Shown: piece by piece, positions 2,413 through 27,343 of the stretch
Numbering within the stretch: the first letter of the stretch is position 1
Layout of the letters: every line of letters starts with the position of its first letter
From: Clostridia bacterium
GTDB lineage: Bacteria > Bacillota > Clostridia > Peptostreptococcales > Acidaminobacteraceae
Assembly (NCBI GenBank): GCA_014859095.1
Contig: JACUUV010000009.1
Span: forward strand, 1-62,738
Direction of reading: 5' to 3'
Length of the DNA stretch: 62,738 nt
Made by a program: the position numbers and the translations under genes
The notes under the pieces: model-generated
What the model was told of the DNA's origin: nothing
The model's database searches: none
The model's input: only the letters and a program-made list of their open reading frames with translations

Positions 2413-3753
2413 GTGGTATTCGAAAGCTTAGCGGAAAAATTGCAAGGCGCGTTCAGTCAACTGCGCGGCAAAGGCAAATTGTCTGAAAAAGATGTTAAAG
2501 ACGCAATGAGAGAGGTCAAACTCGCGCTTCTCGAAGCCGATGTCAACTTCAAAGTCGTCAAGGATTTCATAAACACACTTACAGAGCGTGCCATCGGAGA
2601 ATCGGTACTTCAAAGCTTGACACCTGGTCAACAGGTTGTCAAAATTGTCAACGAAGAACTCACCAATCTGATGGGGAAAACGCAAAGCAAACTTGAGTTT
2701 TCATCAAAACCGCCTACCATCATCATGATGGCCGGACTACAAGGTGCCGGTAAAACGACAACTTGTGGAAAATTGGGTTCATTACTGAAAAAAAATGGCA
2801 AACGTCCGCTACTGGTGGCGTGTGACATATATAGACCAGCCGCGATCAAGCAACTTGAGGTAGTCGGTGAAAAGGTCGGTGTACCGGTATTCACCTTGGG
2901 CGATCAAATCAGCCCGGTTGAAATAGCAAAAAAAGCAGTTGAACATGCGATTAAATTCAATAACGATGTTGTTATTTTGGATACCGCAGGCCGATTGCAT
3001 ATCGATGAAAAACTCATGCAGGAATTGATTGAGATCAAAGCGGTTGTTGTTCCAAAAGAAATTCTATTGGTGCTCGATTCCATGACCGGTCAAGATGCTG
3101 TAAATGTTGCTGAACATTTCAACAGTCAACTTGAAATAGACGGTGTCATCCTCACGAAACTCGATGGAGACACACGAGGTGGAGCGGCATTATCAGTCAG
3201 AGCGGTTACAGGCAAACCAATCAAATTTGCTTGTATCGGTGAGAAGTTGACCGATATCGAGGAGTTCTACCCGGACCGAATGGCTTCAAGAATACTTGGT
3301 ATGGGCGATGTGCTTTCACTTATCGAGAAAGCTCAAGAAAATTTTGATGAGGAAAAAGCAAAAAAACTCGAGTCAAAAATAAAGAATCAATCTTTTGATT
3401 TGGAAGATTTTCTCGATCAACTGGAACAACTACAAAACATGGGACCAATTGGTGATCTGCTGGGTATGATGCCCGGTATGAACAAGAAGGCACTTCAAGG
3501 GGTTGAAGTCAACGACAAAGACCTTGCGAGAACAAAAGCCATCATCCAATCCATGACCAGCAAGGAAAGACAAGATCCTGACATCATCAACGGCAGCCGA
3601 AAGAAAAGGATTGCAAAAGGCAGTGGGGTTCACGTTTCAGAGGTCAATAGATTGCTCAAACAATTTGAACAATCCAAAAAAATGATGAAGCAATTTGGAC
3701 AGATGGACAAAAAAATGAAAAAAGGCGGGGGATTCAAATTTCCTTTCTTTTAA
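2413..3753 (+). CDS. ffh: Signal recognition particle protein Ffh (SRP54)
   Basis: SRP GTPase of 446 residues that binds 4.5S/scRNA and signal sequences emerging from the ribosome, then pairs with FtsY. The N domain covers about residues 1-90. The G domain has the P-loop GLQGAGKTT near 108, DTAGR and TKLDGDTRGG. The methionine-rich M domain (about 300-446) shows the GDLLGMMPGM finger loop and the RNA-binding RQDPDIINGSRKKRIAKGSG block. The start is GTG 2413, eight bases after GGGGAGG. It follows ylxM by 32 bases. Confidence 0.98.
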   Translation: MVFESLAEKLQGAFSQLRGKGKLSEKDVKDAMREVKLALLEADVNFKVVKDFINTLTERAIGESVLQSLTPGQQVVKIVNEELTNLMGKTQSKLEFSSKPPTIIMMAGLQGAGKTTTCGKLGSLLKKNGKRPLLVACDIYRPAAIKQLEVVGEKVGVPVFTLGDQISPVEIAKKAVEHAIKFNNDVVILDTAGRLHIDEKLMQELIEIKAVVVPKEILLVLDSMTGQDAVNVAEHFNSQLEIDGVILTKLDGDTRGGAALSVRAVTGKPIKFACIGEKLTDIEEFYPDRMASRILGMGDVLSLIEKAQENFDEEKAKKLESKIKNQSFDLEDFLDQLEQLQNMGPIGDLLGMMPGMNKKALQGVEVNDKDLARTKAIIQSMTSKERQDPDIINGSRKKRIAKGSGVHVSEVNRLLKQFEQSKKMMKQFGQMDKKMKKGGGFKFPFF

Positions 3754-4857: not shown

Positions 4858-5552
4858 TATTCAGGATTCTTACGCTTTTTCCTGAAATGTTTGAAGGCTT
4901 TTTGAGTTCCAGCATAATAGGCAAAGCTATAGATCAAAATAGGATTACAGTGAGCACTGAAAATATACGTTCATTTTCCAGCAACAAGCATGGCAAGGTG
5001 GATGATGCTCCTTTTGGTGGTGGCGCAGGCATGGTCATGTGTGTTCAACCACTAAAAGATGCTCTTTTATCAAGACCATTATCATCAAACGGTAAAGTCA
5101 TTTATCTTTCTCCGAGGGGGCAGACGCTTACACATGAAAAAGTGGTGGAGCTATCAGGATTATCAGAGTTGGTGCTGGTGTGTGGGCACTACGAAGGTGT
5201 GGATCAACGCTTCATAGACCGCTATGTCGACGAGGAAATCTCCATTGGTGATTACGTACTCACAGGTGGAGAAGTCGCCGCAATGGTCGTTGTGGACAGT
5301 GTGAGTCGTATGGTGTCCGATGTGCTTAAAAATGACGCTTCCGCTGAAGACGAAAGTTTTGCGAACGGGTTGCTCGAATATCCCCATTATACGCGTCCCT
5401 CTGTTTATGAAGGCGACTGCGTGCCGGATGTTCTGCTCTCAGGGAACCATGCTGAAATTCAGAAATGGCGTAACTCGCAATCGCTTGAGATCACTAAATT
5501 CAGAAGGCCGGATCTCTATGAGAATTATTTGAAAGAAAAACACTTGAAATAG
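4854..5552 (+). CDS. trmD: tRNA (guanine37-N1)-methyltransferase TrmD
   Basis: SPOUT-class methyltransferase of 232 residues that makes m1G37 in tRNAs reading CNN and similar codons, preventing +1 frameshifting. The trefoil-knot SAM site appears as VIYLSPRGQ, LVCGHYEGVDQR (near residue 110) and SIGDYVLTGGE. The C-terminal domain carries the tRNA-binding helices. It overlaps rimM by ATGA. Its last codons contain the -35 box of the rplS promoter. Confidence 0.98.
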   Translation: MIFRILTLFPEMFEGFLSSSIIGKAIDQNRITVSTENIRSFSSNKHGKVDDAPFGGGAGMVMCVQPLKDALLSRPLSSNGKVIYLSPRGQTLTHEKVVELSGLSELVLVCGHYEGVDQRFIDRYVDEEISIGDYVLTGGEVAAMVVVDSVSRMVSDVLKNDASAEDESFANGLLEYPHYTRPSVYEGDCVPDVLLSGNHAEIQKWRNSQSLEITKFRRPDLYENYLKEKHLK

Positions 5553-24781: not shown

Positions 24782-25258
24782 ATGTCATTTCCAATAAGCG
24801 GATCTTTCACAACGGATCAAATTGAAAGATTAAACGCAATAAGCAACGACAAAGCCAATGAAGTGCGCAAAAAGAGTCAAATTCTTGACAAGGACGCATT
24901 CCTTAAGCTGATGATGGTCCAACTGCAAAACCAAAATCCACTCGATCCCACAGACAATGCGGAATATATGGCGCAAATGGCTCAGTTTTCTTCGGTGGAA
25001 CAACTGGCAAACATTTATTCTTCTGTTGAAAACACCAACAAACTGAACTCGTTAATTTCCACTCAACTCGAAGATCTTCATAGTGCGGTCAAAGGCATGG
25101 GTAATGGAAACAGCAATGAAGAGTTGTTGTCTCAAAACACAAAAATTCTTGAGGAATTGATGAAAATGAACGCCATGTTGGCCACTTATATCGGACAAAA
25201 TTCAAATAATGAATCTGTGGACGACGGTGAAATTTTCAATCTATTGGGTCAAATGTAA
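24782..25258 (+). CDS. flgD: Flagellar hook capping protein FlgD (short form)
   Basis: 158-residue hook scaffold. It has the conserved N-terminal block DKDAFLKLMMVQLQNQNPLD followed by PTDNAEYMAQMAQFSSVEQL. The Ig/Tudor-like C-terminal domains of the about 220-residue proteobacterial FlgD are absent, and a short helical tail remains, as in B. subtilis. ATG 24782 follows GGAGG. Confidence 0.95.
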   Translation: MSFPISGSFTTDQIERLNAISNDKANEVRKKSQILDKDAFLKLMMVQLQNQNPLDPTDNAEYMAQMAQFSSVEQLANIYSSVENTNKLNSLISTQLEDLHSAVKGMGNGNSNEELLSQNTKILEELMKMNAMLATYIGQNSNNESVDDGEIFNLLGQM

Positions 25259-25273
25259 TAAGAGGGTGAATCC

Positions 25274-25669
25274 ATGAGTCCGATAAAAATGAACAACGAT
25301 TATATACAAAGACGAGTCAAAATCAATCCTTCGGATTCTCCAGCAGTAGGACAAAGACCAAATGTCAGCGGTCAAAATTCATTTGGAGACGTATTGAACA
25401 AAATACGCGAGAAGGATGGCGTCAAATTTTCAAAGCATGCCATGGACCGTTTGAATTCGAGAAAAATAGAATTGACCGATTCAGAAATGAACAGAATCAA
25501 TGATGGTGTTGGAAAAGCGAAAAGCAAAGGTGTACGTGAAGCGCTGATCATGATGGACAACAAGGTGTTTATTGCAAGTGTCCAAAACAATACAATCATA
25601 ACAGCTGTAACAGAGGATCAATTAAAAGACAACGTATTTACAAACATAGACGGAGCAGTAATAGTTTAG
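25274..25669 (+). CDS. TIGR02530-type flagellar operon protein
   Basis: 131-residue small protein of the family placed between flgD and flgE in many Firmicutes. The conserved core is VKFSKHAMDRLNSRKIELTD, then MMDNKVFIASVQNNTIITAV. No membrane segment or signal peptide is seen. The biochemical function is not known to me. Conservation of position suggests a role in hook assembly. ATG 25274 follows AGAGGGTG. Confidence 0.88.
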   Translation: MSPIKMNNDYIQRRVKINPSDSPAVGQRPNVSGQNSFGDVLNKIREKDGVKFSKHAMDRLNSRKIELTDSEMNRINDGVGKAKSKGVREALIMMDNKVFIASVQNNTIITAVTEDQLKDNVFTNIDGAVIV

Positions 25670-25743
25670 CTGGACCTTTTTAGGAAGCTATAGCCCTTTG
25701 ACTGATTGATAAGGGCACCTGCTCGACACAGGAGGTTAACATT
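25670..25743 (+). ncRNA. Structured RNA segment overlapping the flgE ribosome binding site
   Basis: The 74-base gap folds into several elements. A GCCCTT/AAGGGC stem (25693-25698 with 25711-25716) has a 12-base loop. A CCTG/CAGG hairpin (25718-25721 with 25729-25732) competes with an ACCT/AGGT pairing (25717-25720 with 25733-25736) that would cover the AGGAGGT ribosome binding site. The 8-base palindrome GCTATAGC also lies here. I did not recognise a known riboswitch class. A regulatory role is inference. Confidence 0.5.
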
Positions 25744-27090
25744 ATGATGAGATCAATGTTTTCTGGTGTATCTTCATTAAGATCACACCAGCTGCGCATG
25801 GATGTAATAGGTAACAACATAGCCAATGTCAATACGGTTGGTTATAAGGCTTCAAATGTGACATTTGCGGAAACCTATAGCCAGACTCTTGCCGGAGCCA
25901 GTTCTTCAGGCACCTCAAGAGGTGGTACGAACCCTATGCAAGTCGGACTTGGAACAAATGTATCTTCCATATCTGTGAATCATACAAAAGGTTCCATCCA
26001 GAGAACCGATATCGCAACAGATTTGATGGTGGATGGTTCAGGTTTTTTTATGGTGACCAATGATGCCAACGCACAAAACAAGTTTTACACACGCGCAGGC
26101 AACTTCGCGATGGATGAACTCGGATTCCTAGTGACCACTGACGGTTACAAAGTTCTAGATATCAACTTCAAACCGATTCAAGTCAATATGTCGGATACGA
26201 AGAAAGCGACTGCAACCCAGAATTTGACGTTTAATGGCAACATAAACTTCAATGATAAGGATTATACCACAACAGTGGATCTTTATGATTCGCTTGGTGA
26301 CATCCATACACTCAACATCAAGTTTGGTGACAATTTGGTCATGACGGGCACGCAAGTTATTGATACACTGGATCCAAAGTATGATCCCGCAAATGCAACG
26401 GATCAAGTGAAATACTCGTATCGTGCGATGGAATATACAAATACGGATGGTACTCCAATCACTTTGAATCCCGCAACACCTATTTATGTTAAATTCAATG
26501 AAAATGGTGAAGTTGTCAATGTGGTGACACTGAATACTCCTGGTGACCCGGAAGGTGCTGACACAGCATTTGCTGGTACACTTACAAAAGTGGTTCCTGG
26601 TGCATCCAATATCGTACTGGATATCGACCGTACTATGTTCTTTGCAAATGCTGACGTTAATGACGCTAGAATTTTTACACAATACTCTCAGGAATCAGAT
26701 GCCAAAGGCGTCCAACTCGGAGGTATTTCAGCGGGTACAATCGATACTTTCAATATTTCATCCAAAGGTGAAATCATAGGCATCTACACCAATGGCGAAA
26801 GAAAAATTCTTCAAATCATTGGATTAGTCGATTTCGATAACCCTGCAGGCCTTATGAAACTCGGAGGCAACCTTTTCCAAGGAACGCCAAACTCCGGCAC
26901 TCCAAAATATGGTGCTCCCGCAACAGGAAGTTTTGGAGCAGTAACACCTGGTGCACTTGAAATGAGCAATGTGGACCTTGCGGCGCAATTTACGGATATG
27001 ATTACGACACAAAGAGGCTTTCAGGCGAATTCAAGGGTTATCACAACCAGTGATGAAATACTTCAGGAGCTTGTCAATCTTAAGAGATAA
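25744..27090 (+). CDS. flgE: Flagellar hook protein FlgE
   Basis: 448-residue hook subunit. The N-terminal rod/hook helix carries LRMDVIGNNIANVNTVGYKA, and the C-terminal helix contains MITTQRGFQANSRVITTSDE. The long variable middle (about 150-330) distinguishes hook protein from the shorter FlgG rod protein. ATG 25744 or the next codon ATG 25747 follows GGAGGTT. A weak terminator lies directly after the gene. Confidence 0.95.
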   Translation: MMRSMFSGVSSLRSHQLRMDVIGNNIANVNTVGYKASNVTFAETYSQTLAGASSSGTSRGGTNPMQVGLGTNVSSISVNHTKGSIQRTDIATDLMVDGSGFFMVTNDANAQNKFYTRAGNFAMDELGFLVTTDGYKVLDINFKPIQVNMSDTKKATATQNLTFNGNINFNDKDYTTTVDLYDSLGDIHTLNIKFGDNLVMTGTQVIDTLDPKYDPANATDQVKYSYRAMEYTNTDGTPITLNPATPIYVKFNENGEVVNVVTLNTPGDPEGADTAFAGTLTKVVPGASNIVLDIDRTMFFANADVNDARIFTQYSQESDAKGVQLGGISAGTIDTFNISSKGEIIGIYTNGERKILQIIGLVDFDNPAGLMKLGGNLFQGTPNSGTPKYGAPATGSFGAVTPGALEMSNVDLAAQFTDMITTQRGFQANSRVITTSDEILQELVNLKR

Positions 27091-27095
27091 TTAAT

Positions 27096-27123
27096 CTACC
27101 CGTAGGAGACTGCGGGTAGTTTT
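27096..27123 (+). terminator. Weak terminator or attenuator after flgE
   Basis: A perfect 7-bp stem CTACCCG/CGGGTAG (27096-27102 with 27113-27119) with a 10-base loop and only four T after it. It may reduce transcription into flbD-mot after the abundant hook gene. Confidence 0.65.
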
Positions 27124-27151: not shown

Positions 27152-27343
27152 ATGATCAAAGTTACGCGGCTCAACGGGGATCCGATCTATATCAACTCGG
27201 CATTGATTGAGTTTATTGAAGAGACACCAGATACAATGGTCACTTTGACAACAGGTAAAAAGCTTATCATCAAAGAACATGTTGAGGATGTCATAAAAAG
27301 TATCCTTGAATATAATGCAAAAATAAGTCAATATATAAAGTAA
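27152..27343 (+). CDS. flbD: FlbD/SwrD family protein
   Basis: 63-residue protein beginning MIKVTRLNGDPIYINSALIE, the hallmark of the small FlbD/SwrD family. In B. subtilis SwrD raises motor torque by supporting MotAB. Here it lies immediately before motA, which fits. ATG 27152 follows AAAGGTGG. An in-frame GTG upstream is inside that site. Confidence 0.92.
   Translation: MIKVTRLNGDPIYINSALIEFIEETPDTMVTLTTGKKLIIKEHVEDVIKSILEYNAKISQYIK

Follow-up and report, generated by a model that had tools for sequence, protein, structure and literature searches.

A predicted two-hairpin RNA conserved upstream of flgE and other axial flagellar genes in Bacillota

The window considered here (the whole 62,738-nucleotide stretch of DNA that was analyzed, from a genome labelled Clostridia bacterium) carries the flagellar hook gene, flgE, on the forward strand at positions 25744-27090. 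The predicted protein of 448 aa scores 269.9 bits against the TIGR03506 FlgEFG model, which is over the cut-off, and 337.3 bits against the FlgE model NF004241, which is under that model's own cut-off of 469 bits. Upstream of its ATG, at 25744, there is a leader of 74 bases (25670-25743) that includes the Shine-Dalgarno (SD) sequence AGGAGG at 25730-25735. The gene that precedes this gap was given as flgD in the preliminary description. It is actually a member of the family TIGR02530, “flg_new” (25274-25669, forward strand, 131 aa), with 116.6 bits against a threshold of 83.2, and is considered below as a candidate RNA-binding partner; flgD lies one gene further upstream, at 24782-25258. Directly 3′ of flgE there is a terminator-like hairpin of 10 pairs with a T tail (27096-27119), which could separate flgE from the downstream genes, and after this a short open reading frame of ∼63 aa (27152-27343) occupies what we take to be the FlbD/SwrD position. 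The genome from which the window comes (G000) shows no FlgG over the cut-off and partial FlgE matches only, and the assembly may be incomplete.

The conserved element comprises two hairpins, P1 and P2, and extends from 25666 to 25716 on the forward strand. It is matched by our covariance model, R1, with 65.4 bits (E 1.8e-14), a score that is high by construction because the window itself contributed one of the 17 rows of the seed; the next-best place in the same genome reaches only 15.8 bits, leaving one clear place. The lower stem of P1 pairs TAGCT (25667-25671) with AGCTA (25686-25690; helix 1, columns 1-6 and 22-27 of seed alignment A3). Its 5′ strand overlaps the stop codon of flg_new (25667-25669), as it does in many relatives, and the window has a T-T mismatch at the outermost pair of the model, 25666-25691. 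Above this stem, GGA at 25672-25674 lies in an internal loop opposite A25685, a feature defined from 195 distinct parsed RNAs, and the upper stem then pairs CCT (25675-25677) with AGG (25682-25684; seed helix 2, 94.1% paired). In P2, GCCCTT (25693-25698) pairs with AAGGGC (25711-25716; seed helix 3) and encloses a 12-nt loop, TGACTGATTGAT (25699-25710), for which the consensus over the 195 distinct parsed elements is NGANYGANNGAN.

The preliminary description had listed the 6-bp stem of P2, an 8-base palindrome, GCTATAGC, at 25687-25694, and two mutually exclusive pairings further downstream (CCTG at 25718-25721 with CAGG at 25729-25732, versus ACCT at 25717-25720 with AGGT at 25733-25736). 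All of these are present. Missing from the list was the P1 hairpin (25667-25690), which is part of the conserved structure. Thus, the proposal that the gap contains a structured RNA is borne out by comparison with relatives, although the pairings that matter had been wrongly picked.

By itself, the window sequence is no evidence for structure. When the 111 nt that surround the gap are folded in isolation, the z-score is −0.58, with 53 of 200 shuffled sequences folding equally well or better, so the evidence comes from relatives. When flgE was sought in 61 genomes, a match was found in 46. The leaders of the relatives are mostly 66-101 nt in length, with few longer, and the same two hairpins occur across the family and order: P1 follows the pattern UAGCU-GGA-CC..GG-A-AGCUA, and P2 is placed directly 3′ of it, with a stem of variable sequence and a 12-nt loop. 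The 17-row seed (alignment A3) was hand-picked for similar loop length, by removal of L019, L020, L027, and L056 from the 21-row alignment A2 (here, L numbers refer to loci and G numbers to genomes). In it, 97.4% of the pair cells form, versus 73.1% when shuffled and 32%-56% with slid partners. Both sides are altered in 12 of its 16 pairs, including all seven of P2, in which 100% of cells are paired; for the lower stem of P1 the values are 96.1% of cells and four of six pairs. RNAalifold, run without a supplied structure, recovers the identical 16 pairs. A larger alignment, A4, with 76 distinct model-fitted sequences, is 97.2% paired (99.4% in P2) and shows double-sided changes at 14 of the 16 pairs; it comprises all 78 matches of one model search, is biased to the model, and includes four doubtful matches. 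Compensatory changes in the flgE gaps of related genomes had been chosen in advance as the test of the structure, and the P2 stem shows them strongly. Given this pattern of substitution, we consider it almost certain that the element is a real structured RNA. At four loci (L038, L056, L145, and L150) the gap is far longer (135-281 nt) and parts of the element are still recognizable, with a long insert within the element itself at L145 and L150.

For analysis of gene context and loop bases we assembled 216 elements from four fetch rounds (74 of 78, 60 of 71, 55 of 56, and 27 of 29 matches). Dropped from this set were L133 (twice), L135, L137, L141-L151 (treated apart), L283, L297, and L310. The loci are mostly the best-scoring model matches plus second copies, and thus not a random sample, and they are partly redundant (L129 and L130 are one element, and L105/L227, L139/L321, and L162/L269 look like duplicates). 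A parser handled 204 of the 216 (195 distinct). Because it accepted only elements with a GGAC core, with YGA at positions 5-7 of the loop, and with purines at positions 10-11, these positions are invariant partly by construction. With GGAC thus demanded, the internal-loop core is GGACC in 185 and GGACT in 10 of the 195; GGTCC and GGCCC cores occur in two of the 12 unparsed elements. In P2, G2A3 and G10A11 occur in 195 of 195 parsed loops (positions 10-11 being partly parser-fixed), which may be compared with the tandem G-A beside a 3-nt bulge of kink-turns and k-loops. Loop positions 1 and 12 covary across the 195 distinct elements (mutual information 0.509, versus 0.035 when shuffled; z 28.5). 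Most combinations are G with A, U with any of the four bases, or C with A, C, or G, a pattern suggestive of a non-standard pair beneath tandem G-A pairs. In some members (e.g., L012, L024, L026, L028, and L290) the tip of P2 is apparently replaced by ordinary pairs.

The preliminary description had called the RNA unrecognized, c-di-GMP riboswitches included, and this holds, as no Rfam 15 family matches. At the gathering score there is no match in the entire window and none over 14 related loci. Around the element, a search with E up to 10 returned seven matches, all far under their cut-offs (the best with 16.8 versus 94.4 bits), and nothing was found at the element in 10 further loci with E up to 5. 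Termite-flg RNA (RF01729) is located upstream of flagellar genes. Like the present element it is a candidate RNA that would act in cis, with a flagellar name given in PMC2864571, and it differs in having 106 model positions, versus 52 here. None of seven genomes has a match over its 40-bit cut-off; the window's own genome has no match, and there is none at the element (two matches in the MAG G726, with 21.8 and 19.4 bits, are at other places). Flg-Rhizobiales RNA (RF01736) is also a flagellar-gene RNA candidate, given for Rhizobiales in PMC2864571 as well, and has no Rfam match at the present element. The Rfam 15 and RF01729 searches therefore rule out a known Rfam family as the identity of the element. 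Among the matches listed in full-text searches of the literature, there was no such RNA upstream of flgE or flgG, a list of 224 RNAs, reportedly from a 2017 study, being outside this comparison. A term search of PMC8040213 found no flagellar term.

Model R1 has matches in 88 of 291 genomes of the class and in 236 of 398 genomes of the phylum, with E-values that are rough owing to shortened calibration. Two matches were found in 53 of the 236, and in at least one of these (G625) both represent a single element on two contig ends (L129/L130). A pattern scan of contigs gave at least 118 loci, at least 85 of them with a model match at E up to 0.05; the taxa are to be read as examples, not frequencies. 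Among the matches listed, named contigs include those of Halobacillus, Virgibacillus, Litchfieldia, Fictibacillus, and Paenibacillus, as well as Clostridium ljungdahlii (L246, which also has flg_new), Sporomusa, and Halanaerobium, with a weaker match (25-27 bits) in Coprothermobacter. Also among the matches listed are MAGs labelled Geobacteraceae, Bacteriovoracaceae, Caldithrix, and Riflebacteria, labels that may reflect binning errors (the element at L238, for example, is on a contig labelled Bacteroides). Three matches with no recognizable flagellar gene adjoining (L135 in G061, L137 in G150, and L283) were taken as chance, as was the match in G291 (L335), from whose 2.3 kb flgE and flg_new are absent. 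In G256 (L152) there are two extra R1 matches, at ∼1907-1960 and 3024-3065, before open reading frames that look short or frame-broken; these begin MGINGISTGY and MAINGISTGY, and Pfam gave nothing useful for them.

In 181 of the 216 elements, flg_new lies no more than 700 nt upstream, and what follows is flgE in 144, a gene with a flgG-like score in the place of the hook gene in 32, the end of the stretch in four, and flbD in one. We read the 32 flgG-like-scored genes as short FlgE because of their place after flg_new. In the flbD case (L295, 4847-4898), flbD comes directly after flg_new and the element; flgE is missing from its usual place there and seems to have been lost or moved. The element is without an adjoining flg_new in 35 cases. 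In 30 of these it lies between a FlgEFG-like gene and flgG (the flgF-flgG interval, where some genomes, Halanaerobium among them, have a further copy of the element), and in three it is placed before flgE: L129 is truncated where its contig ends, and L203 and L231 are second flgE genes. All nine flgG-type proteins tested are over the TIGR02488 FlgG cut-off, and the protein at L203 is FlgE-like. At L329 the element (5072-5124, minus strand) is found between flgN and flgK, the latter with 224.1 bits against TIGR02492 (cut-off 170.75). At L302 (1970-2024, minus strand) it precedes a 300-aa protein of no assigned family, with neither flg_new nor flgE adjoining. In every resolved case the downstream flagellar gene is on the same strand as the element. 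From this place and orientation we infer, with considerable confidence, that the element very probably acts in cis on the mRNA that it precedes (flgE, flgG, or flgK).

In the same genome sets that were searched for the RNA, TIGR02530 was found in 98 of 291 (class) and 280 of 398 (phylum), and in none of 14 control genomes. The gene is present in 86 of 88 RNA-positive genomes of the class and in 234 of 236 of the phylum; the four RNA-positive genomes without it (G291, G326, G479, and G630) have RNA matches with E of 6.5e-4 to 0.009. This co-occurrence is partly shared synteny, since flg_new is the physical neighbor of most elements, and a confounder is that the RNA and the gene are each a mark of a flagellated genome. 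The association of unlinked copies with flg_new, in contrast, is independent of linkage. Among elements away from flg_new, the genome has the gene in 32 of 32 searched, that is, for 29 of 29 flgG copies in G-numbered genomes, plus L203, L329, and L302. (L213 and L231 were outside the search; the MAG of L231 also carries L221, which has flg_new.)

The converse also holds where it could be read. Twelve genomes of the class have flg_new and no RNA match; 11 were readable, and the element is at its place in 11 of 11, in some cases highly divergent (14.5-37.1 bits; E exceeds 0.01 for three). Of 46 such genomes in the phylum, 15 were read, namely those with flg_new coordinates at hand, and the element occurs in 15 of 15 (19.1-47 bits). 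Thus, because 26 of 26 re-read misses that bear flg_new had the element, a whole-genome miss means little. FlgE/F/G proteins are found in 113 of the 291 class genomes (Bacillus subtilis being one of the control genomes with a match), and 15 of the 113 lack flg_new. No RNA match was obtained in 14 of these 15, and the sole match (G291) is the one noted above that has neither flgE nor flg_new nearby. Given the many false negatives of the search, the absence of the RNA without flg_new rests on four leaders rather than on 14 of 15: the element was found in none of the four flgE leaders read from genomes that lack flg_new. No GGACC core occurs in the 300 nt upstream of L047 or of the second flgE genes L049-L051.

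For the family TIGR02530 itself, no published study was found in the literature searched. An alignment of 79 of 183 non-redundant sequences shows invariant residues that include H55, R59, and K85. The AlphaFold2 model of flg_new has a mean pLDDT of 83.6, with values of 90-97 for the ten-residue blocks that start at residue 51 or later and, ahead of this confident core, an N-terminus of low confidence. With E values up to 1 allowed, 54 of the 79 members have a weak match to Pfam DUF4258 (best E 0.0018). VIA neighbors of the model include ParE (Z 5.7), HigB2 (5.5), RelE (5.0-5.4), and Cami1 (5.8), which we take to contain a RelE-like part. RelE, ParE, and HigB toxins are frequent among the structural neighbors, with Z of 4-5.7, yet all Z values are below 8, under the trustworthy level, and other folds score alike (pantothenate kinases, Z up to 5.3). 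A Foldseek search of the model against the PDB gave nothing under E 0.001 (best E 0.16). The predicted core weakly resembles the RNA-acting RelE/ParE fold.

The element is close to the ribosome binding site. Over 186 of the 216 leaders (start codons were sought only within 130 nt), the median distance from element to SD is 15 nt, compared with 13 nt in the window, and the median distance from element end to start codon is 31 nt. The preliminary description had placed the RNA over the flgE ribosome binding site and had proposed that alternative pairing hides the SD. The proximity stands, and the hiding is unsupported: the SD has a mean probability of 0.440 of being unpaired, versus 0.434 with dinucleotide-shuffled upstream sequence (Wilcoxon p 0.86), so that no conserved SD pairing of the kind expected for a thermosensor or translational riboswitch, and therefore no switching mechanism, is visible over the 186 leaders.

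Our leading interpretation, to which we give just under an even chance, is that the element is a new leader RNA that acts in cis on axial flagellar genes, and that a protein, most likely flg_new, binds it to set translation. The conserved bases of the internal loop and the P2 loop (NGANYGANNGAN) would be recognized by a trans-acting protein, whose binding beside the ribosome site would raise or lower translation of the axial proteins. A protein seems a probable partner, in preference to a ligand, because the element is linked to flg_new and also occurs before flgG and flgK. That the protein is the product of the upstream flg_new gene is less certain, a tentative proposal that we put somewhat short of even; it is made because the RNA follows the presence of flg_new and the predicted core of the protein weakly resembles RelE/ParE. 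In ribosomal-protein leader autoregulation, a protein binds a structured RNA inside a polycistronic mRNA. The present case would be similar in that the candidate partner is encoded in the same operon, and different in that the targets are hook, rod, and hook-associated proteins, and the candidate partner is not itself a target.

Several other explanations were weighed, of which the one that survives best is still unlikely. It is that the element serves in processing or stability, where cutting by an RNase, or protection, would prolong the life of the flgE, flgG, or flgK part of the operon mRNA and so yield more protein. The element precedes flgE and flgG, whose products the cell requires in larger numbers than the other rod proteins. 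Also, a strict terminator-like hairpin follows flgE in nine of 22 loci examined, including the window's own, so flgE can be bracketed by structure. However, 13 of the 22 loci have no such hairpin, and a processing element would not need the same loop bases from Bacillales to Clostridia, nor would there be reason for it to track flg_new.

The strong conservation of bases in the loops, and the location in a leader, would also be in keeping with a small-molecule riboswitch with a compact aptamer of two hairpins, and compact hairpin riboswitches exist. Against this, there is no conserved expression platform (no terminator-like site is found between the element and flgE in the window, and SD accessibility equals that of shuffled sequences), and the downstream genes, where resolved, nearly all encode structural proteins of the flagellum rather than metabolic ones. 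On these grounds, we regard a riboswitch as quite improbable.

A binding site for CsrA is less probable again, indeed very unlikely on the available sequences. CsrA recognizes GGA, for example on flagellin mRNA, and P1 carries this motif in 195 of 195 parsed elements (the parser required it). The known site of CsrA, however, is ANGGA in a hairpin loop, whereas this GGA is inside the GGACC internal loop. CsrA (PF02599) was sought in 65 of the 113 flagellated class genomes, hand-chosen for completeness, and found in 61. Two of the four CsrA-free genomes (G100 and G127) also lack flg_new, which would fit, but the other two (G147 and G238, of one genus, each a single contig and 100% complete, with no PF02599 match) have both the RNA and flg_new, so the element does occur without csrA. 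Conversely, G202 and G284 have CsrA, yet no flg_new, and their flgE leaders are without the element. CsrA with FliW provides post-transcriptional control of flagellin mRNA via GGA motifs, according to PMC4894983; that system is alike in that it acts on a flagellar structural gene with GGA motifs, and unlike the present one in gene and in structure, and the element is kept in two CsrA-free genomes.

Finally, the idea that the CCTG/CAGG or ACCT/AGGT hairpin masks the SD, as in a thermosensor or attenuator, is scarcely credible and was rejected, since these pairings, which are present in the window and have similar counterparts in the nearest relatives, are missing from most relatives compared, and the SD is as accessible as in shuffled sequences. 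Readthrough of the flg_new stop codon into flgE was also rejected, because the gap lengths (66, 71, 72, 73, 74, 75 nt, and more) do not preserve a reading frame.

Returning to a protein-bound leader, we can suggest a more specific form of it, which leans on the structural model of flg_new and is a good deal more speculative, in fact rather unlikely as it stands. Here, flg_new would be a specific mRNA regulator of RelE/ParE fold that acts on flgE, flgG, and sometimes flgK, and would couple their synthesis to the state of assembly. The N-terminus of flg_new, modelled with low confidence and perhaps disordered, may permit export or holding by the flagellar secretion gate. If true, this would amount to an RNA-level assembly checkpoint for the hook, the distal rod, and the hook-filament junction in Bacillota and scattered other phyla.

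The finding provides a 51-nt RNA that is kept from Bacillales to Clostridia and Sporomusa, plus a few MAGs labelled as other phyla, and that is missing from the RNA catalogue searched (Rfam 15). It suggests RNA-level control or tuning of axial flagellar proteins in a large part of flagellated bacteria, and it leads to a specific hypothesis on what the widespread flagellar gene flg_new does. How the amounts of hook and rod are set is now within experimental reach.
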